A stretch of DNA of 46,861 bases, taken from the NCBI GenBank assembly GCA_021737275.1, contig JAIPEE010000033.1:1-46861 (forward strand), in the 5' to 3' direction. Positions 14,987 through 41,639 of this stretch are shown here, piece by piece. This stretch comes from Desulfobacterales bacterium (GTDB lineage: Bacteria; Desulfobacterota; Desulfobacteria; Desulfobacterales; JAIPEE01). Below the pieces are notes generated by a model. It ran no database searches, was not told the origin of the DNA, and saw nothing but the letters and a program-made list of their open reading frames with translations. How positions within the stretch are numbered: the first letter of the stretch is position 1; each line of letters begins with the position of its first letter. The translations under genes were made by a program, and so were the position numbers.

Positions 14987-16171
14987 TCACCAACGAATAC
15001 CCTTAAAAATAACATCCTTTCTAATATTGTCTTTAAACCCGTCAACAATCCGAAACATATCCGTCATAACTTCATCGGTCAGATAGTGGGGTTCGACACC
15101 AATATCAATCAGGCCTTGATATGTGGGATTGTAATAATGTTCTTCGGCTTCTTTTCGGGGGTTTTCGATGTGGTCTACTTTTACATCATATCCCAGAGAG
15201 ACACCAACTTTTTGGACTTTTTCTGCCAGATCATTGGCGCTGAACGTTTCCATGATCTGGTTGAAGATGCGGAGTTCACTTTTTTGTGCGGGTGTCTTTT
15301 CTGACATATGGACGCACTGGAGCGTGTCGTTGATATTCAGATAGCCCCGTGTCTGACCGCCTTTGCCGTAGACCGTGAGCGGATAGTCCACAATGGATTG
15401 AACAATAAAACGGTTGAGGATGGTTCCGAAAACCTCATCGTAGTTAAATATGGTTCTGAGACGGTTATCAATTTTGGACTCTTCGGTCTCAATGCCGTAA
15501 ACCGGACCCTGCATGAGGTCCGTTACCCGAAGATCCCACATACGGACGCCAAACCACATCAGGTCCGTATCCATGATTTTGGTCGTGTGATAAATGGAGC
15601 CGGCCTGGCGCGGGAAGAGGAACTTGTCTTTTTTACCCTTATGCTCAATCTCCAGCCAACCCTCTTCAATATCAATATTGGGCGTACCGTATTCACCCAT
15701 GGTGCCGAGTTTGACAATATGTGTATCACGTGAAAAATCCCTGGCAGCAAACATGAGATTGTTGGTTACAATCAGGTTATTGAATATGGTTGTATTGGCA
15801 TGGTTATAATCAATAAGAGAGTAGGGCGCAGAAGGCTGCTCTGCATAATGGATAACGGTCTCAGGGATTCCGGCAAACTTGTCATCTATGGCCCAGGTAT
15901 ATTCGACTGTTCCATTAAAGAATGATCGCATCACTTCAGGATCTGTCAGATCTCCAACAACCACCTTGATTTTTTTCCCGGTAAGTTCGTGCCATATTTT
16001 AGCCCGTTCAACTAATGTCGGAACCGGATAAAGCATGCCGACATCAAGTGCTGCACAGGCATTTCTGCGAAAATAGTTATCCACAACTGTTACGTCATAA
16101 CCGCGTTCAGAAAAATACATGGCTGTCGGCCAACCGAGGTAGCCGTCGCCGCCGAGTATCAATATTGACAT
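14987..16171 (-). CDS. sqdB: UDP-sulfoquinovose synthase (SQD1/SqdB family), copy 1
   Basis: A 394-residue extended SDR. The NAD motif is ILGGDGYLGWPTAM at about residues 4-17, where SQD1 proteins have the unusual GWPT in place of the usual epimerase sequence. Further family signatures are TMGEYGTPNIDIEEG, the catalytic SIYHTTK (Tyr-His-x-x-Lys), FGTILNRFIVQ, DYPLTVYGKGGQTRGYLNI and PRKEAEEHYYNP. SQD1 enzymes make UDP-6-sulfoquinovose from UDP-glucose and sulfite. The match is extensive, so the reaction is likely, though the end use need not be sulfolipid. An AAGG site precedes ATG 16171. A second homologue lies at 40422-41639. Confidence 0.85.
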   Translation of the reverse strand: MSILILGGDGYLGWPTAMYFSERGYDVTVVDNYFRRNACAALDVGMLYPVPTLVERAKIWHELTGKKIKVVVGDLTDPEVMRSFFNGTVEYTWAIDDKFAGIPETVIHYAEQPSAPYSLIDYNHANTTIFNNLIVTNNLMFAARDFSRDTHIVKLGTMGEYGTPNIDIEEGWLEIEHKGKKDKFLFPRQAGSIYHTTKIMDTDLMWFGVRMWDLRVTDLMQGPVYGIETEESKIDNRLRTIFNYDEVFGTILNRFIVQSIVDYPLTVYGKGGQTRGYLNINDTLQCVHMSEKTPAQKSELRIFNQIMETFSANDLAEKVQKVGVSLGYDVKVDHIENPRKEAEEHYYNPTYQGLIDIGVEPHYLTDEVMTDMFRIVDGFKDNIRKDVIFKGIRW

Positions 16172-16226
16172 GGGAGAACCTTTTTAGATGGTAGCATTAT
16201 AATAACGTTTAAGTATTTTTGAAAAA

Positions 16227-16341
16227 GTGCTGAGTTAAAAGAATAGTTCTAGGCTATGCGTACTGAGTGCTGAGTGAAAAAAAATATATTAAAAGTTGAT
16301 AAAGGATAAACTTTTATGGTTTTTCGCTCATCGCTCAGTAC
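16227..16341. repeat. CTGAG-type intergenic repeats
   Basis: GTGCTGAGTT (16227-16236), GTACTGAGTGCTGAGTG (16260-16276) and, in the opposite sense, CGCTCATCGCTCAGTAC (16325-16341) are variants of one motif. They fill the gap between the sulfoquinovose synthase and the dehydratase; the last runs into the dehydratase 3' end. Confidence 0.5.
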
Positions 16342-17431
16342 TTTTTTCCCCATTGGGCCAATACCTCTCTGCTGGATGCTGAAGATCCGTTACATCTTCT
16401 GTGAGCAGATCATTATCGTACAGAAAAGCTTTCAGTTCTTCTTTAGACAGTGGTGTTTCATTGGCGGAATTATAGGGGTTGGTTACTGTTTTAGATTTTA
16501 GCCCCTTGTAATCAATGGCGTCGTTGGCATATGATCCATTAAGAGCAGGAAGAACCACAAAATATCGTTCAAGTTCCCATGATCTTCTGGTTTCTTCGAT
16601 GCTCATAAGCTCTTCATACATCTTTTCACCCGGCTTGGTGCCGATAATCTCAATATTGATGTTGTCAGGATTGTGACCATATTGGGGGGCGAGTTCCGTT
16701 ATCATAATTTCTGCAAGATCTTTTATGCGAATGACGGGCATTTTGGTTACAAAAACCTCTCCGCCCCTGGAAAGTTCTGCTGAATCAATTACAAGCCGGA
16801 CAGCACCTTTGATACTCATGATGAACCGGGTCATTTCAGGATCGGTCAGCGTGATCGGGCCACCATTTTTAATCTGTTCACGGAAGATGGGAATAACAGA
16901 CCCCCTTGATCCCAGAACATTGCCAAAACGTGTCGAAGCAAGCATGGGTCCCTCTTCACGGAGATTGCTGAATGCGGCGGTCATCAGGCGCTCGCCCATA
17001 AGCTTTGACGTGCCCATTACATTCGTTGGATTTACCGCTTTATCCGAACTGGTAAAGATCACTTTTTCGACATTATTTGCCGCTGCGGCTCTTATGATAT
17101 TCTGAACACCGATGATATTGGTCTGAACAGCTTCAAATGGAGATCTTTCACAGAGAATAACATGTTTGAAAGCAGCAGTGTGAAAAACCACATTGATATC
17201 TTTCATTTTACGGCGCAGCTTTTCATGATCACGTGTATCTGCCAGAAAAAACGAGCTTTGGGAGAACTTTGAATATTTCTGTTCCAGAAAAAACAGATCA
17301 CTTTCATTATTATCTAGCGCGACCAGCTCCTTAACCTGATGATCTTCGAGAAGCTGCTTCACCAGTTCACGCCCGACAGTGCCGCATGCGCCGGTAACTA
17401 AAACTGTTTTTGATTCAAGAAATGAAGGCAT
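16328..17431 (-). CDS. UDP-N-acetylglucosamine 4,6-dehydratase-like enzyme (short CapD/FnlA/PseB type)
   Basis: A soluble extended SDR of 367 residues starting MPSFLESKTVLVTG. The NAD motif is VTGACGTVGREL, and the block TSSDKAVNPTNVMGTSK is the DK...MGxxK active site typical of inverting or retaining 4,6-dehydratases, where Met replaces the usual Tyr. Also seen are STRFGNVLGSRGSVIP and GTKPGEKMYEEL. It would make a UDP-4-keto-6-deoxy sugar, the start of several amino- or deoxy-sugars. The frame runs 47 codons further upstream (to 17572), but that stretch is translated repeat DNA. ATG 17431 has AGGAT 8 bases upstream, so I prefer it. Confidence 0.87.
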   Translation of the reverse strand: MPSFLESKTVLVTGACGTVGRELVKQLLEDHQVKELVALDNNESDLFFLEQKYSKFSQSSFFLADTRDHEKLRRKMKDINVVFHTAAFKHVILCERSPFEAVQTNIIGVQNIIRAAAANNVEKVIFTSSDKAVNPTNVMGTSKLMGERLMTAAFSNLREEGPMLASTRFGNVLGSRGSVIPIFREQIKNGGPITLTDPEMTRFIMSIKGAVRLVIDSAELSRGGEVFVTKMPVIRIKDLAEIMITELAPQYGHNPDNINIEIIGTKPGEKMYEELMSIEETRRSWELERYFVVLPALNGSYANDAIDYKGLKSKTVTNPYNSANETPLSKEELKAFLYDNDLLTEDVTDLQHPAERYWPNGEKSTER

Positions 17432-17460
17432 TTTTGAAATCCTTTTAAAATCAGAAAGGA

Positions 17461-17645
17461 GTGAAAAGTTAGGAGTTAGGAGAAAAAACAAAAGCACTGA
17501 GCAAGAAAAGTGCTGAGCGATGAGTACTGAGAAAACCTGGTTAGGAGTTAGGAGAAAAAAAGACAAACGCATTTGACCTTCCCCTCACTCCTCACCGGGT
17601 TTTCCTCTCCTCACACCTTACCCCTTACACCTCACTGGGTTTCCA
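17461..17645. repeat. Purine-rich tandem and inverted intergenic repeats
   Basis: A direct repeat GTTAGGAGTTAGGAGAAAA occurs at 17468-17486 and 17540-17558, with GAGCGATGAGTACTGAG between. Downstream the strand bias flips to pyrimidine-rich CTCACTCCTCACCGGGTTTTC (17584-17604), which is nearly the reverse complement of GAAAACCTGGTTAGGAG (17531-17547). The tract therefore can fold into a long imperfect hairpin. It separates the regulator gene from the dehydratase gene. Confidence 0.6.
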
Positions 17646-17729
17646 TACCCTATAGCTCCGCCTCTTGAATTACAGTTTTCAATTTCAAAAGGATAAAACT
17701 TATCAGAGTATAACAAAAACTAAATTCGA

Positions 17730-18743: not shown

Positions 18744-20798
18744 ATGCCGCTGACTTGTAAGGGATTATTCAAAACGAAACTTCTTTTATCCTGCATTATT
18801 TATATAGTGGCATTATTCCCTTTCACAGCATTTGCAACAGATGCACCTTTTGACAATCCATCAAACTGGGGGGGGACAGGCCTTCTTGAAATGCCAACTG
18901 CGCGGGTTCTTGATGATGGTATTGCACGTATTGGTATAGCGAATGCTGATCCTTATCGTTGGTGGACAGGCTGCATGGGCGTTTTCCCGGGCCTTGAAGT
19001 TGGTGGAAGATTTACGGAGTTCACTAACCTTGAGGGCTTAAATGAGGATTACGGTAATGCCACAGATAAAGCATTTGATATAAAATATCAGCTTCTTCCT
19101 GAATCCCGTTATATGCCGGCCATTGCAATTGGTTTTCATGATATTGAGGGAACACAGCTTTTTGAATCTCAATATTTGGTATTCAGCAGACAGGTCTATC
19201 CGTTTGACCTGACTCTCGGTATCGGAAATAAACGGCTTGGCGGGAATGATAATAACGATTTGCTGTTGTTTGATAATGCGAACTATTTTGGCGGTATTGA
19301 ATGGGCTGTAAATGATTATCTTCACTTTCTGGCTGAATACAATTCCATTAAATATGAAAATGATTCTAAGGTTGCTGTATTTGACGGCGCTGATTCTCCG
19401 ATAAATGTCGGCATGAGGGTGAAGGTTCTTCCGGAAGTTCTTTTGGGACTCTCCTGGCAGAGAGGAGATACCATTGCCCTGATGTGTCATCTCCAGGCTG
19501 AACTCGGCAAGCCGTTAATGCATAAAAAACCGGACCCGCCTATGTGGTGGAAGGAAGATCAGCGAGCTCTGGATGAGCGTGATGGCCTCGATATGGTAAC
19601 AAAAATAAAACTGTCTCTTCAGGATGCAGGATTTAGCAATATATCTGTTTATACGGATGGTAAAAGCATTGTTGCTGAATATGAAAATAAAAAATATCCG
19701 TCAAACCAGAAGGCTGTTGGGCGCGGTTTACGTATATTGTTATTTAATTCACCAGCGGAGATAGATAATTTAAACGTTATTTTGACCCGCCGCCAAATTC
19801 CCTTTTTAAAAGTATCAGTCGCACCGAATATATTTGAAGATTATATTTATAATAAGCTTACCCGGGAAGAATTATCCAAACATATTTCAATTGAGTTGGT
19901 GAACAGAGAAAACCATTCAAAAGATAACCTGCTCTTTGAAACAGCTGAAGAGTCAAGTTTTGATTATAAATGGGGCATAAAGCCGGATCTTCAGCTTTTT
20001 CTGAATGATCCGACAGGGGTTGTCCAGTTCAAGGTGGGTATACAGCCATATGTTGATGCGGATCTGTGGAAAGGCGGCGCTGCAACTGTAAAATATGACC
20101 TGCCGTTTTATTCTGATGTAGGATCCAGCAACATTGTGCCGCCGGGTGCTACCAGAAGTGACGCCTGGAAATATTATGGAAGTGATCCCGCTTTTGACCA
20201 ATTGATGGTTGATCAGGTTGTCAAATTGAATAAGTTTTCACTTGGACGATTTAGTGCCGGTTGGCTTGAAGAGATGTATGCCGGTGTTGGCGGAGAGCTT
20301 CTTGCTTTTCTTGCAGATGGAGATATCGGTATCGGTATAGAAGGGGACTGGGTCAGAAAACGTGATCCTGAAGCGCATTTTGCGTTACTTGATACTGAGC
20401 AGCATACGCTTCTTGGGAATCTGTTTTATAATTTTGAGCCGGTTGACATGACCTTTAAATTTCAATACGGGCGGTTTCTGGCCGGCGATGTCGGATGGAA
20501 ACTTTCGGTAAAGAGAGAATATGATACCGGTGTCTCCCTGGGTGCCTGGTATGCTGATACGGATACCGATGATGTCCCCGGTTTTTATAATCAAGGATAT
20601 CATGACAAAGGTATCTATATGAGCTTGCCCGTTGGCATATTTAAAAATGATTATACAAGGACAAAATATACTTACAGTATTTCACCCTGGACAAGAGATG
20701 TGGGTGCAACGGTTTCACATTATAATGAACTTTTCAGCTTTGGTTCGGATCTGATGCCGTCACAATTTGAGTCTGATCTGGATGAAATTCAGGAATAA
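18744..20798 (+). CDS. YjbH-domain outer-membrane exopolysaccharide protein
   Basis: A 684-residue exported protein. Residues 1-31 are a signal peptide with a long hydrophobic core, cleaved probably after AFA. The mature start PSNWGGTGLLEMPTARVLDDGIARIGI is the hallmark of the YjbH family. The rest alternates short amphipathic strands ending in aromatic residues, as in outer-membrane beta-barrels. YjbH proteins are encoded with exopolysaccharide genes and are thought to help secretion or assembly at the outer membrane; the exact job is not settled. It is divergent from the EPS regulator. A CTGAG-type repeat follows the stop. Confidence 0.85.
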   Translation: MPLTCKGLFKTKLLLSCIIYIVALFPFTAFATDAPFDNPSNWGGTGLLEMPTARVLDDGIARIGIANADPYRWWTGCMGVFPGLEVGGRFTEFTNLEGLNEDYGNATDKAFDIKYQLLPESRYMPAIAIGFHDIEGTQLFESQYLVFSRQVYPFDLTLGIGNKRLGGNDNNDLLLFDNANYFGGIEWAVNDYLHFLAEYNSIKYENDSKVAVFDGADSPINVGMRVKVLPEVLLGLSWQRGDTIALMCHLQAELGKPLMHKKPDPPMWWKEDQRALDERDGLDMVTKIKLSLQDAGFSNISVYTDGKSIVAEYENKKYPSNQKAVGRGLRILLFNSPAEIDNLNVILTRRQIPFLKVSVAPNIFEDYIYNKLTREELSKHISIELVNRENHSKDNLLFETAEESSFDYKWGIKPDLQLFLNDPTGVVQFKVGIQPYVDADLWKGGAATVKYDLPFYSDVGSSNIVPPGATRSDAWKYYGSDPAFDQLMVDQVVKLNKFSLGRFSAGWLEEMYAGVGGELLAFLADGDIGIGIEGDWVRKRDPEAHFALLDTEQHTLLGNLFYNFEPVDMTFKFQYGRFLAGDVGWKLSVKREYDTGVSLGAWYADTDTDDVPGFYNQGYHDKGIYMSLPVGIFKNDYTRTKYTYSISPWTRDVGATVSHYNELFSFGSDLMPSQFESDLDEIQE

Positions 20799-20807
20799 AA
20801 AAGATTG

Positions 20808-26362: not shown

Positions 26363-26412
26363 ATAATTTATACTTTTCAATGGTCATAATATTATTTATC
26401 AAGTAAGCTATC

Positions 26413-27156
26413 TCAATCTACGTGTTCTTCAGCCCACGCCATTCGATCGATAGTCTTCAGGTGTTCAATTACCGCATCAGGGTTAATAAATCGCTCCACA
26501 ATATTGTTTGAGTTTCTTTTCACAGTGCTTATGATTATGGGCGCAATATTGGCGTCAACACCAAGAAATTCCATCACCCCGGCAATTTTTTCGATTTTAC
26601 AAATTTCAGGATACCCAACTTCAATCCACTCACTCGCCGGACGTTTTTTTAGTTGTTTTTTAGCTTCCTTATATCGCTTGGTATGATTTTTTAGAAATCG
26701 TTTAAAATGTTTGGGATTGAACGCTACCTTTGCCTGCCTGACTTCCCCACCAACCCTGACTGCACCCTGGCCTGTTGCTTTTGCGATCTGATGAGATGCA
26801 TACATTGCAAGTAAATTTTCACGAAATAACAGCACTTTTTTTATCCGGGGCTCTTGAATTAACCAGTTCATAGCTTGCTCTGACTGATTGAACATAAGTT
26901 TAAAACCAAACAGGAAACCCTTTCCGTCTTTTTCATTAACTGCTTCGAGGTATTCCTTATAATGCGTATCGCGATATTCCACGGACTGGAAGTTTGCAGT
27001 CAACAGTTTCAATATTTTTAGGGCCCCACTCATTTTAACATTCTCGCGGCGGAAAAGCTCTCCGTGGCAGCGAACATGAGGATGATTTTCCAGTGCGGAA
27101 ACCAGCATATTGGAGCCTGTTCTTTGCGACGCTATTATTACAAAATTTATATTCAT
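26413..27156 (-). CDS. Sulfotransferase, Stf0-like, copy 1
   Basis: A 247-residue PAPS-dependent sulfotransferase. The N-terminus has the 5'-phosphosulfate loop VIIASQRTGSNMLVSALENH, and the 3'-phosphate motif is visible in KVLLFRENLLAMYASHQIA (Arg and Ser spacing). Such enzymes move a sulfuryl group from PAPS to a hydroxyl, for example of a sugar; the mycobacterial Stf0 acts on trehalose. I take ATG 27156 (MNINF) with GAGGAAAA upstream; the longer frame to 27195 lacks a ribosome site and would overlap the next gene. It follows its close paralogue by 25 bases. Confidence 0.85.
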   Translation of the reverse strand: MNINFVIIASQRTGSNMLVSALENHPHVRCHGELFRRENVKMSGALKILKLLTANFQSVEYRDTHYKEYLEAVNEKDGKGFLFGFKLMFNQSEQAMNWLIQEPRIKKVLLFRENLLAMYASHQIAKATGQGAVRVGGEVRQAKVAFNPKHFKRFLKNHTKRYKEAKKQLKKRPASEWIEVGYPEICKIEKIAGVMEFLGVDANIAPIIISTVKRNSNNIVERFINPDAVIEHLKTIDRMAWAEEHVD

Positions 27157-27181
27157 TATAAATTTTCCTCTTGAGTTTAAG

Positions 27182-30746: not shown

Positions 30747-32816
30747 TCAACGTAGATTAAAAACATTACGAATAGTAAAAATTAGCGGCAGCATTTCAGG
30801 ATCTATAACGTCATTTTCCAGGTAGGGGTCTAACACCCGTATAAAATCAGCTTTCCTGTTCACATGGGCCTGGCGCATGGGATTACCTGCAAGCCTGTAG
30901 AAAAAAAGAGATTCAGGAATTACCAAAAGCTTGTATCCGGAAATTACCGCACGGGAAAAAAATTCGTGGTCGTCAAGGCCAATACGATAATGTTCAGTAA
31001 AGCCGCCAAGGTCTTTCCAGACAGAACGACGGACAAAACAATTTGAGTCACCAAAACCATTACGCAGCAGACCGTAATAAAGATCAGATCCAAACGGCAT
31101 GCGGGTTGTGGGCAGTATTGTATCCTGATCGGGCAACCCTTCACCCGTAAACAGATCGCTGAAACAGGTTAGAATGTCTGAGTCAGTAAATTCAGCTACC
31201 CGGACAAACGTTTCGATCTCCTCGGGTTTAGCGTAATTATCATCATCAAGAAATAAAAGATACTTTCCTTTTGCGTGTCGTGCGCCGGTATTACGTACTG
31301 CGCCAAGGTACCTGTTTTCTTGTCGGACCAGTTGTACTTCAGGGTACCCGGTAAGAACAGCTTTCAGTTCTTTGTAATTTTCATCACTGCTTCCATCATC
31401 TACTATGATCACTTCGAAATCCCGAAAAGTTTGAGATCGAAGTGACTCCAATAACATCCAGATAACATCCGGTCGATTGAAGTGGGCTATACAAGCACTG
31501 ACCATGGGATCTTTATGCGTCCCATTTCTAACTAATTCATGCTGCTGAAAAACAGAGGTTTGATGGCGATATTCCTGAACGGTTTTATGAAGAATCTTGT
31601 GCTGATTTATCCACCAACTATCAAAATCACTCTTTATCTCACAAGAGGGGAGGGCGATTCCATGACGAAGAACTTCTCCAAGTCTGTTTGCCCATGCCAG
31701 ATGATGCGGAGCTACAAAATACTCAGCAAACAGATCTTCCGGCAATAAACGGCGAAGATCAGCCGTCTCGGTAGCAAGAAAGGGACGACCGGCTGCCAGG
31801 GCAATATTGGGCAAAATAATATCCGAACTATAAAAAGCAGGAAACACTGCAAGAACTTCAGGGGATTCAATCTTCATCTGAATGGTTTTAGCGGAAGCCG
31901 ACGGCAGTAATTCAACTGCAAAGGGCCATTTTGCTCTATAATTTGCAAGAAAATCCGCACAGGAAAAACCTTCATCCTGAGAACCCAGAATGCAAACACG
32001 CTTGGGACTGATACCTCGACCGGCCAATACCTCAAGCGCATAGACAAAGGTTGTAAATCCTGCACTCTGATTAACAGGGGACGCAAATAGTATCTCTTCG
32101 ATTTTGGTAATTCCGTTAGCTGATTTAGCAGCCTTCCTTACTGAATGTGATGTCAGGGAGCCTGGCTGAGGCACAAAAAAAGTTTTGGATTCATGAAAAA
32201 GATAATTAAGTTTCGTCAATTTATCATGAACAGGCTCACTCCGAACATAAATGCCGTCAGCGTTCTCTATACAATAGCGTTCCATAGTGCATCGTGCCGG
32301 AATCGAGTAGTCTTCAACAGCTGTTCGGCCTGTAATAAGCCGATAAAGTAAAGGTTGATAGACATGGACGGCAACTGAGGCCGGATACTGTAACAGTCCT
32401 TCTCTTCTGGCAAGAAGATAGTAATAGGCCGGCGCAAAATAATCTTGAAAATGAATAACATCATATTTACGATTTTTCAAAGTTTCATAAGCAAGAAAGG
32501 GAACTTCCGCTGCTTGGCCATTATCATCAATATTGGGCATTTTGTCTGGATATGGTTCACAGATAACTCGATGACCGGCATCCCGTATCTGACTTAGTAC
32601 CAAATGATCATTTTCAGATCTAATGGAGCGTTTTTCAAGATTTCTGGGCGTAATGGTTAAAAAATCAACTTTATGCCCCTCACTCTTTAAATGGTCCGCT
32701 ATTTGAAGGTAGTAACAAATCTCCAACTGATTTATAACGACCTCGGTCTCCTGAGCCAGTATTATACCTGCAGAATATTTTTCTTGTCGTGGATTCTGAT
32801 TTTTCTTTAGTTTCAA
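30747..32816 (-). CDS. Large two-domain glycosyltransferase (degenerate GT4 + GT2)
   Basis: 689 residues, starting at TTG with AAGGA about 9 bases upstream. The N-terminal GT-B-like half (AGIILAQETEVVINQLEICYYLQIADHLKSEGHKVDFL, YDVIHFQDYFAPAYYYLLAR) has no E(x7)E; the region reads VFPAFYSSDIILPNIALAAG. The C-terminal half is an intact GT2 domain: VSACIAHFNRPDVIWMLLESL, VIIVDDGSSDEN, LLFLDDDNYAKPEEI and GLDDHEFFSRAV. It is the closest relative in the window to the gene at 24110, and the sulfotransferase pair lies between them. One active transferase site is likely; substrate unknown. Confidence 0.82.
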   Translation of the reverse strand: MKLKKNQNPRQEKYSAGIILAQETEVVINQLEICYYLQIADHLKSEGHKVDFLTITPRNLEKRSIRSENDHLVLSQIRDAGHRVICEPYPDKMPNIDDNGQAAEVPFLAYETLKNRKYDVIHFQDYFAPAYYYLLARREGLLQYPASVAVHVYQPLLYRLITGRTAVEDYSIPARCTMERYCIENADGIYVRSEPVHDKLTKLNYLFHESKTFFVPQPGSLTSHSVRKAAKSANGITKIEEILFASPVNQSAGFTTFVYALEVLAGRGISPKRVCILGSQDEGFSCADFLANYRAKWPFAVELLPSASAKTIQMKIESPEVLAVFPAFYSSDIILPNIALAAGRPFLATETADLRRLLPEDLFAEYFVAPHHLAWANRLGEVLRHGIALPSCEIKSDFDSWWINQHKILHKTVQEYRHQTSVFQQHELVRNGTHKDPMVSACIAHFNRPDVIWMLLESLRSQTFRDFEVIIVDDGSSDENYKELKAVLTGYPEVQLVRQENRYLGAVRNTGARHAKGKYLLFLDDDNYAKPEEIETFVRVAEFTDSDILTCFSDLFTGEGLPDQDTILPTTRMPFGSDLYYGLLRNGFGDSNCFVRRSVWKDLGGFTEHYRIGLDDHEFFSRAVISGYKLLVIPESLFFYRLAGNPMRQAHVNRKADFIRVLDPYLENDVIDPEMLPLIFTIRNVFNLR

Positions 32817-32868: not shown

Positions 32869-34398
32869 TCAATTCTCAATCGATGATAACGAACAATTAT
32901 TTTTTTGACAAAATCTTTGATAGTGCTTCAAAATTCGATCATTGCCGGGAGCACACTGAACAGCTAATTTGTATGAAGCCGCCGCTTTTTCAATATCACC
33001 TCTTTTTTCATTCAACCGTGCGATCAGGAATTGTAATTGCCCATTTCTTTTAACAACTATCTTTTCTAATTCTTCAATGGTTTTAACAGAATTGTCCAGC
33101 TCTCCGATTTCTATTTGAGATTCTGCCTTCATAATTAAAACCATTTTTTTGTATTTCCCGCCTAAATCCACTTTGTCTAAATGTTCAAGGCACTGTATCC
33201 AGCTTACATCACTCCATGCTTTTCTTGCGAGACAGAAATAAAGTCTGGGATCATCTGGTTTCGAATATAAAAGTTCTTCCGCTTTCTTTGCTGCTTTTAT
33301 GTATCTTTCACTTTGAAAATCATCAACAAATTCGTTCCATAAACTATCTTGTTCAACGTTATTTACCCGTTTCCCGCCAGACAAATCATTATGGTAGTCA
33401 GCCTGATTTTCAAAAGGCATTTGATTGGATTTTTTAATATTATCCTTCTTGAGATATTCGTTTATCATTCTTTCAATGATTACAGAAACCATCTCTGATT
33501 TTACATGAATTCGATCAGATTTCCATGCCATTTCAGGATTACTGAGCAAGACGCTCTCATAGCTTGGATAATAATCTACAAAATCATGATCCTGAACAAT
33601 TTTTTCTGAAACTGTGCGTAGCAATGATTTCGAATAAGAATTCGCAACCGAGACATCTTTCTCGGTAAAAGTCCTTGATAGCGGAACCGGAGAAACCGTT
33701 AACACAACCCGTATGCTTTCTTCAGCATATTGCTTTATCAGGCAGAGGCTTTTTTCTAAATAACTTAGCACTTCATTGTAATCCAAAACATGAAGTTCAA
33801 AACGGTTTGGGTATTTTCTCATTACCTGTTTATGTGGGGTCACATTCAAATGTTTTTTCGTCAAACGATCCCACCATGACTCGACAAGCCCTAATGTAAT
33901 CAAGACAACTTTTGCTTTACGAACAGAAGATGTAAGGGTCAAAATAGACTTTCTTGTTTGAATAACATCAGTTTGGGGAGCAATTTTAACTCTATGGGCC
34001 AAATGAATATCAACAAACCCATCAGGTTGAATTTCTATTAAATTATTATCAAAATCATAAATATCATTCGAATCAAGTGCCCAGCTAAGTTCATTATATA
34101 TTGAAGCAACAGAATAAAGATTTAAAAATCCTGGAGCTAATCCTTCTTGAGTCTGAATAAAATCTCTGGTTGGTACATGAATCCCATTTTCAATCAGCCT
34201 TGATTCTATGTTCCGAGCGAAACATGATCCCATCGTAAATACATTATCACCCGGTTCAAAGGAAAATCCTTTTTGAATCGAAGGTAATGCATATGGCCAT
34301 AATCTGTTGTCCGGCTCGTCAAATGATGGCCACTTGTTATACGGATTCTCTTTAAGATTTTTAATGGCATCAGAACAGTCTAAAATTTTAACCGGCAT
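32869..34398 (-). CDS. GSCFA-domain protein with C-terminal TPR-like region
   Basis: 509 residues. The N-terminal GSCFA domain has the signature FTMGSCFARNIESRL with the Ser at about residue 58, and a KSDRIHV block near 308 that supplies the Asp-x-x-His of SGNH-type hydrolases. Family knowledge places GSCFA near SGNH esterases and acyltransferases, so a sugar ester may be its substrate. The last 150 residues (SERYIKAAKKAEELLYSKPDDPRLYF, AASYKLAVQCAPGNDRILKHY) are helical repeats of TPR type. No signal peptide is seen, so it is cytoplasmic. The AGGAAATGAT upstream of ATG supports the start. Confidence 0.85.
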   Translation of the reverse strand: MPVKILDCSDAIKNLKENPYNKWPSFDEPDNRLWPYALPSIQKGFSFEPGDNVFTMGSCFARNIESRLIENGIHVPTRDFIQTQEGLAPGFLNLYSVASIYNELSWALDSNDIYDFDNNLIEIQPDGFVDIHLAHRVKIAPQTDVIQTRKSILTLTSSVRKAKVVLITLGLVESWWDRLTKKHLNVTPHKQVMRKYPNRFELHVLDYNEVLSYLEKSLCLIKQYAEESIRVVLTVSPVPLSRTFTEKDVSVANSYSKSLLRTVSEKIVQDHDFVDYYPSYESVLLSNPEMAWKSDRIHVKSEMVSVIIERMINEYLKKDNIKKSNQMPFENQADYHNDLSGGKRVNNVEQDSLWNEFVDDFQSERYIKAAKKAEELLYSKPDDPRLYFCLARKAWSDVSWIQCLEHLDKVDLGGKYKKMVLIMKAESQIEIGELDNSVKTIEELEKIVVKRNGQLQFLIARLNEKRGDIEKAAASYKLAVQCAPGNDRILKHYQRFCQKNNCSLSSIEN

Positions 34399-34737: not shown

Positions 34738-35700
34738 TCAATCCCATCCTTTTGCCGGTCCACCAAATAGGGATTTGCAGTTATCAATTTCTTTCTTGAA
34801 AAAATCAGATAAAAAAATCCTTATTGAGAGAGGCATTTCTAACTTTTCGACGTTAGCCTTCTTGTCATAATCAGCATTAATAGAAAAAAATTTTGGATCA
34901 CCTGATATTTTTAAAAACGCACAAATATCTCGGCGAACCTTTTCAGGGGACTGAGAAATCTCATCAAAGAAAAAAAAACCGATTTTTGACTCTCCGAAAG
35001 CCATAGCCCAACGTTGATAAATTACGCTGGGATATGACCTCATGATAATGTTTGGAATTGGATCCTCAATAAGAACTTTACGAATATAAGATTCGGAACA
35101 TAACTGATCACGGGATATGCTCCCATGCCGCAATCTCATCCTTAATTGCGACCAAACACGGTCAATTGGATTTCTTACAATTAGGATTATACTTGTTTCC
35201 GGAATTAATTTGGCAATTCTTTGTACATATTGTTCTGACAAAATCGAATAAGCTGGTGTCACATCGCCAGTTACTGAACGGGATGCTCCTTCAAAAAGAG
35301 ATAAATACCAATCGATTTCGACTTTTTTTGCTTGATATTCATACCGTTCAATTTTGTGATTATCCAAGCCCAAGTGATTAACGTTTTGCGATCTTAAGGA
35401 TAAATGCCTTTTTCGTTTTTCTTTTTGCTCATCGGCTTTTGCGGTCAGCATGGCTTTTCGAAAAAACGACAAATCATCTATATCATATAATTCACCTTTT
35501 ATAATATTTTTCACCAGGTGTCCAAATTTGTTGCGAGTTGCGATGAAATTAAACGCACCGTCAAAAAAATGAAGTTCTTTGACCGGAGGCATCCAAACAT
35601 CACGATGTGTTCTTAACTGATCATATAGCCAACTTGTTGCTGCTTTCTGCAACCCAATGCAAAGAAAATCAGGATAATTTGGATGTTTATTAATACTCAT
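34738..35700 (-). CDS. Sulfotransferase domain protein (sulfotransfer_1/3 type)
   Basis: 320 residues. The 5'-phosphosulfate loop is FLCIGLQKAATSWLYDQLRTH at residues 11-31, and the 3'-phosphate site is IILIVRNPIDRVWSQLRMRL, both canonical for PAPS sulfotransferases. An early PPVKELHFFD segment is also common in the group. The final 25 residues are basic and hydrophobic. It belongs to a different sulfotransferase subfamily from the Stf0-like pair, so it likely acts on another acceptor. It is the first of three sulfotransferase-like genes in a row from 34738 to 37678. Confidence 0.85.
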   Translation of the reverse strand: MSINKHPNYPDFLCIGLQKAATSWLYDQLRTHRDVWMPPVKELHFFDGAFNFIATRNKFGHLVKNIIKGELYDIDDLSFFRKAMLTAKADEQKEKRKRHLSLRSQNVNHLGLDNHKIERYEYQAKKVEIDWYLSLFEGASRSVTGDVTPAYSILSEQYVQRIAKLIPETSIILIVRNPIDRVWSQLRMRLRHGSISRDQLCSESYIRKVLIEDPIPNIIMRSYPSVIYQRWAMAFGESKIGFFFFDEISQSPEKVRRDICAFLKISGDPKFFSINADYDKKANVEKLEMPLSIRIFLSDFFKKEIDNCKSLFGGPAKGWD

Positions 35701-35905: not shown

Positions 35906-36669
35906 TTAGCAATCAGGAATATGATGTTCATCATATCTGAATCTTTTGAAATCATTTTTATAAAATTTTATAATTTTATTTTTATTGATAGCAAGTTCTT
36001 TAGAATAAGACTTTGTATATTGTGTTTTCTTACGTTCAGGCATTTCAAATGATGATATTTCTGACAAAAATCCAAACTTACTAAAACAAAATTCGATATC
36101 ATTTGTAAAATTTTCCAATCTTCCTATAAAATCATAGCTGATTTTATCAGAAGCAATCACCAGGTGTTGGGGTCTCCAATGCCCATTGGATAAAACGGGA
36201 TCTTGCGAAGTTACAAAGTCAACAAACGCTGAGAAGCTTACAGGTTGATTGATCTGAGATGGGTCTTTTTGTAAGGCCCTCAAAACTTCAGCTTTTGGTT
36301 TTTTCTCCCACAAATCTGTTTTTCCTATCATTCTGTTTATTTTATTTTCATAAGCAGAAATAAGACGAAGGTATGGGTTTCTCACAAATACAAATTTAAA
36401 ATAAACGTCCCCAGTCAGTATCTCATGAATTAATTTATAGTTCGGAAGCAACTTACGAAGTGCCAGATCTTTTAAAACCCCTGTATTATGTACGCGCAAT
36501 TTTTCATTTTTTTTTAATGAGGGATAGATTCCCTGGGCTATAACTTGTTTTATAGTAGTAGATGCACACTTTGGATTTGAACACCAAAGAAACTTTTTTT
36601 TTCTGAAACAAACAACCGCATATGAGGAAGTGAATTATAAAATTTTTTAAATTTTATTAAATTATTCAT
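35906..36669 (-). CDS. Sulfotransferase family 2 protein, frameshifted in a 9-A tract
   Basis: The intact part is 197 codons, reading from 36499, with the 3'-phosphate motif FVFVRNPYLRLISAYENKI. Upstream in the same frame are GIYPSLKKNEKLRVHN and FLWCSNPKCASTTIKQVI, the 5'-phosphosulfate loop, but this stretch has no start codon. A different frame supplies one: ATG at 36669 with GGAG 9 bases upstream, encoding MNNLIKFKKFYNSLPHMRLF. The two frames meet at a run of nine A (positions 36593-36601). With ten or seven A the reading would be whole. So the gene is out of frame here by one or two bases: a mutation, a phase-variation state, or a sequencing error. As written it would not make the full enzyme. 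Confidence 0.7.
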
Positions 36670-36925
36670 TTAAAACAACTCCAACTATATTTTCTCTATA
36701 CTCAAATAATAAAAGAATGTCAGAAGTCATGGCTTGTTATTCTTAAAATACAAAGTAAATGTATTTTTTGCTTAAAATTTGATTCAGGTTGACGGCAGCA
36801 CTTTCCATTAAAAAAATAGAGTGCTAAAATAATAAGCTTTTTTAGGTGTCTGAATCAAATGTTTTTCGAAAATCAGATGGCTTTAAGCTTTAGTATAAGA
36901 AGAAGATTAAAAATATTCCTAATAA

Positions 36926-37678
36926 TTACGGAACCATATCAGGAAAAAGGCGAAAATAAAGGCGATCTCTTTCCAAAATAAATTTAATATCATCCTCACT
37001 GAAATATTTATTCCAGGTCATTTTCCGCTTTCCCCGTCCACCTTTTTGAGGAAGAATTGGTAGTGCGTCCAAAATTGGTCTGGTTTTTTCATCTTTAATT
37101 CCATAATGTTGAAGCAGTCCAAAAAGGTCGGAATTTAAATTTTCAGTTTTAAGAAAATGAATATTTTTAAATTTTTGATTGAGAATGTCGTCGTCTATGG
37201 TATCAAGTTCACTCAATAACTTTCTGGGATTATCATTGGTCAGGCGTGTCAGTACCCATGAATTGTAACCAATTTTTCGTGTTGTAAGGGCTTTTGCTTT
37301 TTTCTCAGGAATAGTGCCCCGCAAAGACCATTTATTGAAAAGATGTAAGAATTCTGAAAAGGTAAGATCTGGGAAATCAGGGTAAATCTTAAGAACCTTA
37401 TCCATATCAAACATTTTTTTTGAATAAACAGGATCCGCCCACCAGCGAAATGTATAACGTGACACATAGTGTTCAAAAACATTCCGAACATTTGTTACAA
37501 TCGGAAGATTACGAGATAGAGAAGGAATTTTTTTTATACCGGCATGCTTTAATTCGGGAAGTTCCAGAATATTTATTCCATCATCTCCCAGGGCAATCTT
37601 ACGCAGCATTTCGGTAACAAAAGTTCCTCCGGTCTTAGGGTGGTGGATATAAACAAAAGCATTATTAAAAACAATCAT
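36926..37678 (-). CDS. Sulfotransferase family 2-like protein
   Basis: 250 residues beginning MIVFNNAFVYIHHPKTGGTFVTEML, where HPKTGGT is the 5'-phosphosulfate loop of this family. The 3'-phosphate motif is IVTNVRNVFEHYVSRYTF. The rest is helical and lacks signal or membrane segments. I prefer ATG 37678 over the TTG four codons earlier (37690) because GGA falls about 8 bases upstream of it. It is the first gene after the epimerase in the minus-strand block, separated by 170 bases. Acceptor unknown; a glycan is likely from context. Confidence 0.8.
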   Translation of the reverse strand: MIVFNNAFVYIHHPKTGGTFVTEMLRKIALGDDGINILELPELKHAGIKKIPSLSRNLPIVTNVRNVFEHYVSRYTFRWWADPVYSKKMFDMDKVLKIYPDFPDLTFSEFLHLFNKWSLRGTIPEKKAKALTTRKIGYNSWVLTRLTNDNPRKLLSELDTIDDDILNQKFKNIHFLKTENLNSDLFGLLQHYGIKDEKTRPILDALPILPQKGGRGKRKMTWNKYFSEDDIKFILERDRLYFRLFPDMVP

Positions 37679-37850
37679 ATCTATTTCCAAAAAAATAAAT
37701 TTCTGAATTAAAAAAATTCAACCCCGCTGTAATCGAAGCGAGGTATATAAGGGGTAATCAGCTCAGCAAACGCCAGAGAAGCAGCTTTAACAGGTTCAAC
37801 GTTTATCAGATATTAAATAGAACCTCCCAACAGTTTTTTGAAAAAGGGCG

Positions 37851-38771
37851 TTACTGTTTTTGGAACCATGCCCATGTTTTCTTAAGCCCTTCAAGCAGAT
37901 CCGTTTCAGGATTAAAGGCAAAAGCATCACGCGCTTTATCAATTTTGCCCCAGGTGTGGAGGATCTCACCATCACGAAAATCTTTATATTGAACCGATAT
38001 CTCTCCGGGAGAACATCCTATGGCTAATTCAATCTGTGCTATTAATTCATTTATGCTAGTAGGTTGGCCGCTGCCAAGTTGATATACGCCGTTTACTCCG
38101 GTTTCAACAGCATTAACAATGCCTTTTACCAGATCACCAACATAAAGATAATCCCTGTTCTGCGTTCCATCTCCGTAAACAATTAAAGGATCACCATTTA
38201 AAATTCGGCGCATAAAAGCAGCAACCACACTGCCTTTATGGAAAGAGCGCGGCCCAAAGATGTTAGTAAAACGCAGTGCTACTGACTTAAGGCCATATGA
38301 TCCTGCATATGCGGAAAGATAACCCTCCATTGTGAGTTTTGATGCACCGTAAGGTGACAGGGGCCGGGGAACCATGCCTTCGTGGACTGGTGGATCGGCT
38401 TCACCGATAATGGCTCCGCCTGTGGAAGCAGCCACAAAGCTTTCTACACCTGCAAGTCGAGCCGCTTCCATAAGCTGAAAAGTTCCGTTTACATTGACAT
38501 CAAAATTAAAAACCGGATTTTCTATGGAATCCATAACCCTTGTATCGGCTGCCAGATGAATAATTGCATCTTGTCCGGGGATAATGCGGTCCAACAGATC
38601 CCGGTCCCGAATATCTCCTTTAATGAAGTTGGTGTCCAAGCCGGCAAGGTGTTCTCGATTGCCTAAAATCTCATTGTCAAGCACAGTGATTTCATGATCA
38701 CCGGAGAGATTCAAATACTCAATAAGGTTTATACCGATAAATCCGGCACCGCCGGTAATAAAAAATTTCAT
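37851..38771 (-). CDS. NAD-dependent epimerase/dehydratase (UDP-sugar epimerase-like)
   Basis: A 306-residue extended SDR. The NAD motif is FITGGAGFIGINLIEYL, the catalytic pair is SPYGASK (Tyr-x-x-x-Lys), and AASTGGAIIGE, VFNFDVNVNGTF and RFTNIFGPRS match GalE-type sugar epimerases. The length suits the short form common in glycan loci. It would change one nucleotide sugar into another to supply the transferases. The gene follows the 538-residue membrane protein by 25 bases on the same strand, and precedes the sulfotransferase genes. The exact substrate (UDP-glucose, UDP-GlcNAc or a related sugar) is not visible. Confidence 0.85.
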   Translation of the reverse strand: MKFFITGGAGFIGINLIEYLNLSGDHEITVLDNEILGNREHLAGLDTNFIKGDIRDRDLLDRIIPGQDAIIHLAADTRVMDSIENPVFNFDVNVNGTFQLMEAARLAGVESFVAASTGGAIIGEADPPVHEGMVPRPLSPYGASKLTMEGYLSAYAGSYGLKSVALRFTNIFGPRSFHKGSVVAAFMRRILNGDPLIVYGDGTQNRDYLYVGDLVKGIVNAVETGVNGVYQLGSGQPTSINELIAQIELAIGCSPGEISVQYKDFRDGEILHTWGKIDKARDAFAFNPETDLLEGLKKTWAWFQKQ

Positions 38772-38796
38772 ATAATTGTACCTGATTTCTTAAAAG

Positions 38797-40413
38797 TTAT
38801 TCGTCATCTTCGTCATCTTCATCAGCCTGTATTTCTTCAGATATATTCTTTTTGGATAAAGTTGTTTCAATTTCATCCAGATGTTTAAGAAGCCAGTCTG
38901 ATGTACATAACCCCATCTGTCCATTTGCTGCCGGCAAAATCCATGTATCCTTGTCGTTATCCTTATTGATTCGACCTTTAGGCACATTTACATAACAAAC
39001 CGCTATGGTGGCGTCTGGAAACTTGCTTACAACCTCTTTGCTGATCTTGTGCCATAATTTAAATTGAAGCAACAGAAGCGTCCCTTTGCTTTTTATATTG
39101 TCCTGGGCATATGTTTCAAATGCTGATTCATTATCAAAGAAAACCGTTTTTTCTAAAAGATCCTTTGCTCTGAGGAGTTTATTATTCGACAGACAATAAA
39201 CAAAAAACCATAAATTTAATGGGGTCAAGGGCGTTTTTGAAAAAATATGATATGTTTTGCCAGATCGAACCTGTATCTTTTGCAAATCACCAACACGAAG
39301 GGAGTTTTTTATTTCTGTCGATTTTAATTTATTTCCGGAAGGCAAAAATCCCGGATATCCCAGATAAAGAGGATAACGGAGAATCTTCAGATATAGCCTT
39401 GAAAAAAAAGCAAAAGAGGAAAGGATCTTCCCCAGAGAATTACCTGTATGCCGAAGCAGTGCAATAAAAGTAATGACAACAGTCCACTCCCGCTCCCCGG
39501 TAAGCGCCCCATATCCGAGTTGTCCCAGAACGGCAAGAAGGGCCACACCGATTATGAGGTTAGTAAGCGTATCGCTTCGTTGTCTGTTAAGAACTCTGTC
39601 AGAACGCATCGTTTGAACTTCGTGAAAAAGAGGAAGCTTATTATCAAAATTCAGAATAACCTGTTCATCAGGGGGGATTTTTTGTCTGGCCATTATCTTT
39701 GCTTGCGAGATCGCAAGATCTTTGCGTTCTTTTATTAATCCAGGAAGTTTATATTCATTTTCCAGAATTCGGGAATTAAGTAAATAGCTAAAACCTAAAC
39801 CTGGAATAGCTATTAATGCAACCGTAATAACAGTTAATGGATCAATCAGCACCAGCAAAATGGTCCCATATAAAAACTGAAAAACGGAAGGCACCGATCG
39901 CAGTAAAGTACGAGTCGCTCTCGACAAAATATCCGTACCGCCGGTGCTCAAATATATTGTATCCGCTGGAAAAGGCTTTGATCCCATTCCCTTCAGGTCA
40001 GGCAGAATAGGAAAAAATTTAGACAGGCATCTTCGTGAGACATCAACACCATGACGGGCTGAAATATCAAGGACCTGCTGAAGTACGATAATGTCAAGCA
40101 AACTGCTGAATATAAAAAAAACAGAACCTGCTATCGCAACCGGCCAAAACAGGTCACTTATTGCCATCCCTTCCGGCAAATAAATAAGCCATGACGCCTT
40201 GCCTTTCTCAAGCGCTCTCAAATATAAGAATAAAAGTATGAAAACTGAACTGAGAAGCGTTTTTGATAAAAAACTGGCGCTCAACATTATCAGAAGTCGG
40301 TGACGTCCAAATTGCCAGAGGTCAAGAAGCAACCAAACTAATACGGCCCAATAACGTTTAAATCGTTCCCTGATAAATATAAAGTTATTGGGCCAATCTG
40401 AAAGAAATTTCAT
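38797..40413 (-). CDS. ABC-exporter-like transmembrane protein without an ATPase domain
   Basis: 538 residues. The N-terminal 340 have about six hydrophobic segments grouped as in a type I ABC exporter, including the sequence YLSTGGTDILSRATRTLLRS and the following LVLIDPLTVITVALIAIPGL, which resemble the linker and fourth helix pair of such exporters. No Walker A, signature or Walker B motif follows. Instead the last 140 residues look soluble and unfamiliar and end in the acidic tail EEIQADEDDEDDE. It lies between the sulfoquinovose synthase (8 bases away) and the epimerase, so it is probably part of the same operon. It may use a separate ATPase, or have lost transport and act as a membrane scaffold. 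The role is not established. Confidence 0.65.
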   Translation of the reverse strand: MKFLSDWPNNFIFIRERFKRYWAVLVWLLLDLWQFGRHRLLIMLSASFLSKTLLSSVFILLFLYLRALEKGKASWLIYLPEGMAISDLFWPVAIAGSVFFIFSSLLDIIVLQQVLDISARHGVDVSRRCLSKFFPILPDLKGMGSKPFPADTIYLSTGGTDILSRATRTLLRSVPSVFQFLYGTILLVLIDPLTVITVALIAIPGLGFSYLLNSRILENEYKLPGLIKERKDLAISQAKIMARQKIPPDEQVILNFDNKLPLFHEVQTMRSDRVLNRQRSDTLTNLIIGVALLAVLGQLGYGALTGEREWTVVITFIALLRHTGNSLGKILSSFAFFSRLYLKILRYPLYLGYPGFLPSGNKLKSTEIKNSLRVGDLQKIQVRSGKTYHIFSKTPLTPLNLWFFVYCLSNNKLLRAKDLLEKTVFFDNESAFETYAQDNIKSKGTLLLLQFKLWHKISKEVVSKFPDATIAVCYVNVPKGRINKDNDKDTWILPAANGQMGLCTSDWLLKHLDEIETTLSKKNISEEIQADEDDEDDE

Positions 40414-40421
40414 GGTATGTA

Positions 40422-41639
40422 TCAGAGTGCCTCGGGAGTCGTTTTGCCCTCGTGATCAGGCTCAATTTCATTATTCCAGCAGGAAGTACAGATTATATAG
40501 TTGTCATCACAACGATCTTTATACTTTTCGACAATTTCCATCACCTCGTTCATCAGACCTTTCTTGTTTTCCAACAAAATGGGGTTCAGACCTAATTGAA
40601 GAAACTTTTCATTTTTCACCATGAGATTATTTTCTATGGCTTCTTTTCTGGGGTTCTTATAATAACGAATTTCAGCACCTGTCGATTTTGACACCAGTTC
40701 AGCCAGGTATTTTACATTATGTGTTTCAGTGGCCTGATTAAAAATATCTACACGATCCCCTCTATTTGGCGGGTTGTCAATGGCCAGTTTAACGCACTGA
40801 ACGGTATCTTTTATATGGATAAAAGCTCGTGTTTGGCCACCAATGCCATGAACAGTGAGTGGATGGCCAACAACTGCCTGAACAAGGAACCTGTTCAAAA
40901 CGGTTCCAAAATCACCATCATAATCAAAACGATTAATCAGGACTTCATCAAGGCTGGTCTCATCAGTATTTGTGCCCCAAACAACTCCCTGGTGCAGATC
41001 CGTTATACGCAAACCGTCATTTTTGTTATAAAAATAAAAAAACAGAGCATCCTGGGTTTTAGTCATATGGTATATACTGCCGGGGCTTGCAGGATACATG
41101 ATGTCCAGTTCCTGCTTCCCCTGGTCAGTATCTACGGTAACATTCAGATAACCTTCCGGTATTTTCAATCCGGCAGTCTGATAACCGTAGACGCCCATAG
41201 TGCCAAGATGGACCACATGGATATCCAGATTGGCCTCAACTATAGCGGCAAGCAGGTTGTTAGTGGCGTTCAAATTATTGTTTACCGTATAACGTTTTTC
41301 GCGGGATGATTTCATTGAGTAGGGCGCAGAACGTTGCTCCGCAAAATGGACGACGGCATCGGGATCAAATTCCTGTAAAAGAGAGAGGAGTCTGTGGTAA
41401 TTCCGTGAAATATCAAAATTATAATATCTAATTTTATTACCGGTCAGCTCTTCCCAGCGTTCAATTCTTTTATAAATACTGGCAATAGGAGTAAGAGATT
41501 TACAACCCATTTTAGTATCAATATCTCTTCGAGCGAGATTATCTACAATAACTATCTCATATCCATGTTTAGAAAGATAAAGAGACGTGGGCCAACCACA
41601 AAATCCGTCACCACCGAGAACAATAACTTTTTTACTCAT
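40422..41639 (-). CDS. UDP-sulfoquinovose synthase (SQD1/SqdB family), copy 2
   Basis: A 405-residue SDR. The NAD motif VLGGDGFCGWPTSLYL has the SQD1-specific GWPT. Also seen are HLGTMGVYGY, the catalytic SIYHMTK (Tyr-His-x-x-Lys), DFGTVLNRFLVQAVVGHPLTV, GIGGQTRAFIHI and NPRKEAIENN. Compared with copy 1 it lacks the EYGTPNIDIEEG block and the EEHYY tail motif, so it is more divergent and may make a related sugar. It ends with a 30-residue tail (CTSCWNNEIEPDHEG) not seen in copy 1. The ABC-like gene follows by 8 bases. An AAGGA site stands about 9 bases before ATG 41639. Confidence 0.8.
   Translation of the reverse strand: MSKKVIVLGGDGFCGWPTSLYLSKHGYEIVIVDNLARRDIDTKMGCKSLTPIASIYKRIERWEELTGNKIRYYNFDISRNYHRLLSLLQEFDPDAVVHFAEQRSAPYSMKSSREKRYTVNNNLNATNNLLAAIVEANLDIHVVHLGTMGVYGYQTAGLKIPEGYLNVTVDTDQGKQELDIMYPASPGSIYHMTKTQDALFFYFYNKNDGLRITDLHQGVVWGTNTDETSLDEVLINRFDYDGDFGTVLNRFLVQAVVGHPLTVHGIGGQTRAFIHIKDTVQCVKLAIDNPPNRGDRVDIFNQATETHNVKYLAELVSKSTGAEIRYYKNPRKEAIENNLMVKNEKFLQLGLNPILLENKKGLMNEVMEIVEKYKDRCDDNYIICTSCWNNEIEPDHEGKTTPEAL

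Follow-up and report, generated by a model that had tools for sequence, protein, structure and literature searches.

The DNA described here is a stretch of 46,861 nucleotides (the window), positions 1-46,861 of contig JAIPEE010000033.1 from a Desulfobacterales bacterium whose assembly totals 4.26 Mb in 104 contigs. It carries a probable sulfated surface polysaccharide locus, in which two genes of the SQD1 family lie together with five sulfotransferase-like genes. Genes are named by their first position in the window. With modest confidence, the locus is predicted to build a surface polysaccharide that carries both sulfoquinovose (a sulfonate) and sulfate esters. Gene content, family membership, active-site residues and conserved neighbourhoods form the basis from which we infer every reaction, the order of the steps and the use of one shared glycan.

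Sulfoquinovose is known mainly as the head group of photosynthetic sulfolipid, and in Archaea also as a glycan sugar. The window genome is most likely a sulfate reducer, since it has dsrA (619 bits, above the cut-off, by profile search) and encodes a 571-aa fused ATP sulfurylase/APS (adenosine 5'-phosphosulfate) kinase. By the same gene content, PAPS (3'-phosphoadenosine-5'-phosphosulfate) and, probably, the sulfite intermediate would both be on hand.

All seven SQD1-type and sulfotransferase-like genes had been pointed out in a sequence-only reading of the DNA, and all are present on the minus strand at about the positions given there.

The SqdB-type enzyme 40422

The two SQD1-type enzymes hold up in profile and structure searches. 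With the UDP (uridine diphosphate)-sulfoquinovose synthase profile NF041015, 40422 scores 345 bits over its full length and 14987 scores 409 bits, versus just 55 and 23 bits with galE. The best PDB match of both is plant SQD1 (1qrr, 352 bits for 40422; 395 bits for 14987), and the GWPT and YHxxK motifs read by eye are real.

With 40422 as query, the GTDB species collection gave at least 555 confirmed matches. The best 80 of these were taken as loci, and they come from cyanobacteria, Pseudomonadota, Nitrospirota, Deinococcota, Actinomycetota and others. Six cyanobacterial genomes, among them the complete Picosynechococcus PCC 7117 chromosome, were searched at E 1e-40, and each has a 40422-type gene as its sole SQD1 homologue. 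An SqdX-like gene stands beside the 40422-type gene in 6 of the 80 loci, four cyanobacterial and two from Trueperaceae; the query for this was the gene of L059, itself one of the four cyanobacterial loci, which we take to be SqdX. Because of this sole occurrence in cyanobacteria and the adjacency to SqdX, the 40422 clade is read as bacterial SqdB, and 40422 as a credible UDP-sulfoquinovose synthase. The Trueperaceae pairs (L027 and L031, Deinococcota) suggest in their own right that sulfolipid occurs beyond photosynthetic groups.

The active site was compared with that of Agl3, for which the available part of PMC4388408 lists the mutants H95A, R101A, M145A, Y182A and K186A as inactive, and E147A as having 12% of the sulfite-free activity left. 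In the alignment, 40422 retains the equivalents of His95, Arg101, Met145, Tyr182 and Lys186, and Arg101 is retained in all 81 rows of its clade. The residue table started from 141 rows, of which 114 were distinct after identical translations were removed; matches with fewer than 200 aligned residues were excluded.

The same clade membership would also suit a different role. 40422 could serve sulfolipid (sulfoquinovosyl diacylglycerol), with SqdX elsewhere in the genome, and the sulfotransferases would then belong to a separate polysaccharide that is merely sulfated. The cyanobacterial homologues and the six SqdX neighbours fit this. However, no SqdX-like protein was recognised among the window's proteins in a search that covered the window only (the top local alignment covers 35 residues at E 0.028), the SqdB gene sits inside a glycan operon, and a glycosyltransferase of the 27968 type, described below, recurs as its partner. 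We regard the sulfolipid role as unlikely. It had been claimed that sulfolipid alone does not explain the locus; the lack of a recognisable SqdX in the window agrees with this, but the kinship of 40422 to cyanobacterial SqdB takes some of the force from it.

The 14987 clade and its partner 16328

14987 and 40422 are different, non-equivalent enzymes, and are 38% identical. The clade of 14987 has Pro at the position of the essential Arg101 of Agl3, in 28/28 rows that have this column. In a maximum-likelihood tree these 28 rows are split from the 40422 clade, plant SQD1 and the outliers L119, L121 and L145 with support 97/99, while plant SQD1 groups with the 40422 clade at a mere 85/75. The tree has 42 rows, nine of them from the 40422 clade (#2); a further group, 'one', has 31 rows, namely the 28 of the Pro clade (#1) plus the three outliers. 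L146 was left out for length. Plant SQD1 and L121 have both Arg101 and Glu147. Of the 146 genomes of the order, 26 have an SQD1 homologue, mostly of the 14987 type; the window genome is one of the 26.

Next to 14987 lies 16328, whose closest solved structure is 6bwc (280 bits), presumably the UDP-GlcNAc (N-acetylglucosamine) 5,6-dehydratase Pen. A 16328-like gene, 64-72% identical, adjoins the 14987-type gene in 19/19 evaluable relatives of the same order. It is upstream in 18, with a small open reading frame (ORF) in between in two of them, and G059 alone has it downstream. Beyond the order, it adjoins two of five 14987-type genes (L088, L117). These counts omit L120, L139 and L141 (contig ends), the fragments L143 and L146, and the other SQD1 types L119, L121, L142 and L145. 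16328 has the SDKxnMx3K motif, and so do all 38 ORF calls counted from relatives, a number that includes repeats. In the available part of PMC8987622, the triad of PglF/WbpM UDP-GlcNAc 4,6-dehydratases is tabulated as [T/S]DKxnMx3K, and the fingerprint of SQD1 and Agl3 as [ST]MGxnYx3K.

Because it forms a separate clade, has Pro for Arg101 and is tied to a UDP-GlcNAc 4,6-dehydratase-type gene, 14987 may make a product other than UDP-sulfoquinovose. 14987 and 16328 together would then yield another nucleotide sugar, for example from UDP-GlcNAc, and 40422 alone would make UDP-sulfoquinovose. This is compatible with the doubly decorated glycan, and we give it a little less than an even chance. 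What speaks against it is how much of the SQD1 active site is left: the equivalents of His95, Met145, Tyr148, Tyr182 and Lys186 are kept, as is Glu147 in 14987 and in 27/28 clade rows (Val in L117), and nothing is missing from the TMG...YxxxK fingerprint. In addition, L119 (565 bits with NF041015, near its cut-off) and the divergent L145 likewise have Pro, and the dehydratase gene adjoins only those two of five outside the order.

A more daring extension is a long shot. It holds that 16328 dehydrates UDP-GlcNAc and that 14987, with its Pro for Arg101, adds sulfite at C6 to give UDP-6-deoxy-6-sulfo-HexNAc (N-acetylhexosamine), throughout the Desulfobacterales. UDP-sulfoquinovose, perhaps 4-epimerised by 37851, would serve as the donor for the 27968-type enzyme, and sulfate esters would come from PAPS sulfotransferases. 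The glycan would thus have two kinds of sulfonated sugar, one of them a sulfonated amino sugar from a new route. Such a combined route is chemically conceivable because Agl3, according to the available part of PMC4388408, yields UDP-glucose-5,6-ene in the absence of sulfite.

A very divergent SQD1 homologue without the TMG motif (36%) was seen at L152:16923-18071, and also as L145. In L152 it is flanked by genes that by eye look NeuC-like and aminotransferase-like, 11 kb from a 40422-type gene.

The sulfotransferase-like genes

Five sulfotransferase-like proteins had been pointed out. Both PAPS-site motifs are legible by eye in all five proteins, but the proteins differ in what else identifies them. 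26413, 34738 and 35906 are predicted sulfotransferases by profile or structure match, with 26413 also matching the lipopolysaccharide sulfotransferase NodH (9vki) over its full length at E 3.8e-16. 27182 falls under the PF13469 cut-off (20.2 of 27 bits) and is assigned as a paralogue of 26413. 36926 is assigned by motif only.

36926 has a PKTGGT loop and VRN...YVSR. It has no Pfam match under E 0.04 and no meaningful PDB match, and a homologue search of the 146-genome set found 36926 itself only. Structure prediction from its single sequence gave a poor model, with a mean pLDDT (predicted local distance difference test) of 35. A pattern derived from this gene, made after seeing it, matches four of the neighbouring ORF calls, which number 781 with repeats. 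Each of the four is sulfotransferase-like, one with a score below the Pfam cut-off; within the window 36926 alone matches.

35906 is indeed frameshifted, as had been stated. Its 5' part, which starts with an ATG, is read in a different frame, and a run of nine A's (window 36594-36602) marks the overlap of the two frames and most likely the site of the frameshift. The run itself could be an assembly error, the mark of a dead gene or a slippage switch.

The window genome is rich in sulfotransferases, because it has 13 PF13469 and 5 PF03567 match rows in several islands: on C85 (6), C22 (5), C95 and in the window. Islands L157 (C85:1-20000, six rows) and L159 (C22:8000-27000, five rows) have their sulfotransferases among glycosyltransferase-like genes, and one C85 row has an internal stop. 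L160-L161 (C95:5000-43000) is a glycosylation island that adjoins flagellar fliD/fliS-like genes and contains nonulosonic-acid-type genes, both recognised by eye; one protein there fuses sulfotransferase, TPR and glycosyltransferase domains.

Homologues of 26413 are present in the SqdB loci L024, L037 and L077. A single open frame at L024:12336-14117, near the epimerase and SqdB, matches both the 27182 and the 35906 sulfotransferases and is possibly a double sulfotransferase.

Do SQD1 and sulfotransferase genes meet by chance?

Co-location was counted in the 25 same-order genomes that have an SQD1 homologue, with the window genome left out and a sulfotransferase defined as a PF13469 or PF03567 match. 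In 8 of the 25, a sulfotransferase lies within 20 kb of the SQD1 gene, where uniform placement predicts 0.45 (P 6e-9); at 10 kb the count is 6 of the 25, against an expected 0.25. The uniform expectation is too kind, because glycan genes cluster. With rmlB as the control, 0 of 20 genomes have a sulfotransferase within 20 kb (Fisher 0.006; positions compared by eye). The neighbourhood of SQD1 and sulfotransferase genes exceeds chance.

Glycosyltransferase 27968 and epimerase 37851

The large glycosyltransferase 27968 is, judged by its neighbours, the best candidate sulfoquinovosyltransferase. A second lineage was sampled through 295 genomes from the family of Roseovarius salinarum (G012). Matches to 40422 at E 1e-80 occur in 73 of them, five (G174, G272, G317, G361, G457) at 40-42% identity only. 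The 27968-type glycosyltransferase is much rarer, with 6 of the 295 genomes at E 1e-50; all six have an SqdB match, in five of them within 20 kb. In G012, the 27968-type gene is beside two sulfotransferases and SqdB is on a different contig.

The company is sometimes complete. In G291, a 15-kb stretch holds SqdB, the 27968-type glycosyltransferase, three genes for Stf0 and one for a GSCFA protein; this is the joint occurrence of SQD1, Stf0 and GSCFA that had been suggested as a check. The Roseovarius loci L037 and L077 have SqdB, the epimerase and the glycosyltransferase, with one and four sulfotransferases respectively. Ten of the 80 loci have a close homologue of epimerase 37851 no more than 1.5 kb from SqdB. 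The link between SqdB and the 27968-type glycosyltransferase is firm; that with sulfotransferases is recurrent but optional.

Two variants of the glycosyltransferase were seen. The homologue in L177 carries a GT2 domain too. The one at L178:2136-5804 has an N-terminus that by eye resembles a fused sulfotransferase loop, and two separate sulfotransferase genes adjoin it.

Weighing the proposed doubly decorated glycan

A number of observations weigh against a single glycan with both groups. The first concern the enzymes. Both SQD1 homologues score under the NF041015 cut-off of 575 bits. This cut-off does not discriminate here, because none of the 26 genomes found via 40422-type loci, six cyanobacteria included, has a match that reaches it. 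14987 has Pro for Arg101, as described, and 40422 lacks Glu147 (it reads GTMGVYG by eye), as do 81/81 rows of its clade, the sole cyanobacterial homologues too; MAFFT offset this column by one for the 40422 clade. That the absence of Glu147 disqualifies 40422 was considered and dropped: it is no bar, because the six cyanobacterial genomes have no SQD1 homologue outside this clade.

The others concern location. Six of the eight co-located same-order genomes (G091, G165, G053, G113, G136, G095) carry the 14987 type, so that this co-location mainly concerns the 14987 clade; the other two are G057, of a plant-like type, and G169, the sole one of the 40422 type. The 80 40422-type loci were covered with flanks of up to 10 kb, and six of them (L010, L012, L013, L024, L037, L077) hold a homologue of one or more sulfotransferases of the window. 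Stf0 (PF09037) has no general link to SqdB in the Roseovarius family: of the 24 genomes that carry both, one has them within 20 kb of each other. In the 27968-type loci L173-L176 (57 ORF calls), no sulfotransferase was found among the eight proteins scanned, which are methyltransferases, glycosyltransferases or TPR proteins. Within the window, 24 kb and plus-strand genes separate the two SQD1 genes, which may serve two glycans. Glycan genes gather in islands, and co-location is no proof of a single product.

The locus might then be a mosaic: unrelated modules brought in by horizontal transfer, with no shared product. An integrase-core (rve) fragment (window 6855-7364) and a weak short-chain dehydrogenase/reductase stretch with an internal stop (5497-5829, 20 bits) lie inside it, gene directions switch at 18-22 kb, GC content falls to 31-34% at 8-14 kb and 34-38 kb, and further sulfotransferase islands exist elsewhere in the genome. 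Yet the SQD1-sulfotransferase neighbourhood recurs beyond the rmlB control, and the pairing of SqdB with the 27968-type glycosyltransferase is found again in another phylum. A mosaic seems rather doubtful to us.

For the glycan with sulfonate and sulfate groups, as the sequence-only reading proposed it, the SqdB-type 40422, the several sulfotransferases and the recurring neighbourhood are retained; the equivalence of the two SQD1 enzymes is not.

Its assembly could proceed as follows. 3165 would start the repeat unit in a Wzx/Wzy-type pathway. 40422 would convert UDP-glucose and sulfite to UDP-sulfoquinovose, and 27968, the most likely glycosyltransferase for this step, would put sulfoquinovose onto the lipid-linked repeat unit. 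The epimerase 37851 may alter UDP-sulfoquinovose or another donor. Wzx would export the repeat units and Wzy would polymerise them; 26413, 27182 and 34738, with 36926 and, if expressed, 35906, would place PAPS-derived sulfate on the chain. 16328 and 14987 would be a second nucleotide-sugar module, probably sulfite-adding too.

Layout of the locus

The locus extends over some 3.2-42.2 kb, beyond the 14987-41639 first stated (Table 1). An initiating transferase, a flippase, a polymerase/ligase and many glycosyltransferases are all found by profile, as had been read from the letters, and together make this a Wzx/Wzy polysaccharide locus.

In transcription order, the minus strand from 42.2 to 22 kb starts with the small Nudix-like protein, 40422, a membrane protein and the GalE-like epimerase. 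These are followed by three sulfotransferase-like genes, the GSCFA protein, two large glycosyltransferases, the two tandem sulfotransferases and three more glycosyltransferases. After the 22-kb point comes a plus-strand pair, 21009 and YjbH (18744). From 18 to 3 kb, again on the minus strand, lie a winged-helix regulator, 16328, 14987, Wzx, a methyltransferase, an acyltransferase, glycosyltransferases, Wzy, the integrase-core fragment, a second methyltransferase and the initiating transferase.

The membrane protein 38797 gave a poor model in single-sequence structure prediction (mean pLDDT 44). A homologue of 41679 is directly before SqdB in L019 (9381-9941, 49% identity), and others are near SqdB in L054 and L086 (L086: 8631-9242). 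ORF calls in the relative loci, where GC-rich stretches can give antisense shadows, were weighted by third-position GC.

Table 1. Features of the polysaccharide locus, in window coordinates.
Feature	Position	Strand	Evidence or remark
Initiating sugar phosphate transferase	3165..4580	-	Bac_transf profile
O-antigen ligase/polymerase	8181..9524	-	Wzy_C profile
Two glycosyltransferases	9540-10697; 10682-11986	-	10682 below Pfam cut-offs
Hexapeptide acyltransferase and methyltransferase	12008..13312	-	Profile search
Wzx-type flippase	13467..14807	-	Profile search
SQD1 homologue, separate clade (#1), predicted sulfite-adding nucleotide-sugar enzyme	14987..16171	-	GTMGEYG kept, Arg101 to Pro
PF02719 nucleotide-sugar dehydratase, PglF/WbpM-type UDP-GlcNAc 4,6-dehydratase	16328..17572	-	SDKxnMx3K triad
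YjbH exopolysaccharide protein	18744..20798	+	Profile search
Two family-2 glycosyltransferases	22013-22912; 23108-24106	-	Profile search
Glycosyltransferase, GT4- and GT2-type domains	24110..26380	-	Paralogue of 30747 (29%)
Sulfotransferase, NodH/Stf0-like, PAPS loop SQRTGSN	26413..27195	-	PF13469 27.4 bits (cut-off 27)
Sulfotransferase, tandem paralogue of 26413	27182..27919	-	40% identity to 26413
Large GT4-type glycosyltransferase, 904 aa	27968..30682	-	Candidate sulfoquinovosyltransferase
Glycosyltransferase, GT4- and GT2-type domains	30747..32816	-	Profile search
GSCFA-domain protein, weak TPR matches	32869..34398	-	Profile search
Sulfotransferase (PF13469/PF00685)	34738..35700	-	PF13469 38.9 bits; PDB 3rnl, E 1.6e-15
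Sulfotransfer_2 (PF03567), frameshifted near 5' end	35906..36634	-	97 bits, profile 5-252, stop-to-stop frame
Orphan protein, PAPS-loop-like and 3'-phosphate-like motifs	36926..37690	-	Sulfotransferase by motif only
GalE-like epimerase	37851..38771	-	Profile search
Membrane protein without family	38797..40413	-	By eye: ABC (ATP-binding cassette) exporter half, degenerate nucleotide-binding (ATPase) domain
SqdB-type SQD1 homologue (clade #2), predicted UDP-sulfoquinovose synthase	40422..41639	-	Profile, PDB, clade, residues
Small protein without Pfam family	41679..42233	-	Nudix-like by eye

Relation to known systems

All recognised parts are members of known families. 40422 shares its clade with the only SQD1 homologue that the six cyanobacterial genomes have, but unlike the cyanobacterial SqdB/SqdX sulfolipid pathway, the window has a Wzx/Wzy locus with sulfotransferases and a 27968-type glycosyltransferase in place of SqdX. 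Agl3 of Sulfolobus N-glycosylation is also an SQD1 family member, and similarly brings sulfoquinovose into a glycoconjugate and not a lipid. It is however archaeal, 14987 differs from it at Arg101 and 40422 at Glu147, and the available part of PMC4388408 mentions no sulfotransferases.

Vibrio sp. KMM 8419 likewise has a bacterial polysaccharide cluster, for a sulfated capsule, that includes sulfotransferase and PAPS genes. The available part of PMC11641403 describes an ABC-transporter capsule, however, and names UDP-Glc (glucose) and dTDP-Rha (deoxythymidine diphosphate rhamnose), with no mention of a sulfoquinovose synthase. NodH, Stf0 and Sulfotransfer_2 enzymes are not new either (26413 matches NodH, 34738 matches 3rnl and 35906 matches PF03567), but here five sulfotransferase-like genes are in a single locus. 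16328 has the triad type given for PglF/WbpM in the available part of PMC8987622; it differs in being a short form, with 6bwc as best solved match, and in its link to an SQD1 homologue.

A literature search found no bacterial locus that joins a UDP-sulfoquinovose synthase with sulfotransferases, a weak negative given that most subscription journals were outside its coverage. Parts of the combination are found again in bacteria that are only distant relatives, and this suggests an undescribed type of coat, doubly decorated with sulfur.

If this is true, bacterial surface polysaccharides would be a further pool of sulfoquinovose outside photosynthesis. The conserved pairing of SqdB with a dedicated glycosyltransferase, often in the company of sulfotransferases, would also name candidate sulfoquinovosyltransferases. 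The SQD1 clade with Pro for Arg101 is a new lead: tied as it is to a UDP-GlcNAc-type dehydratase, it points concretely to a new sulfonated sugar.

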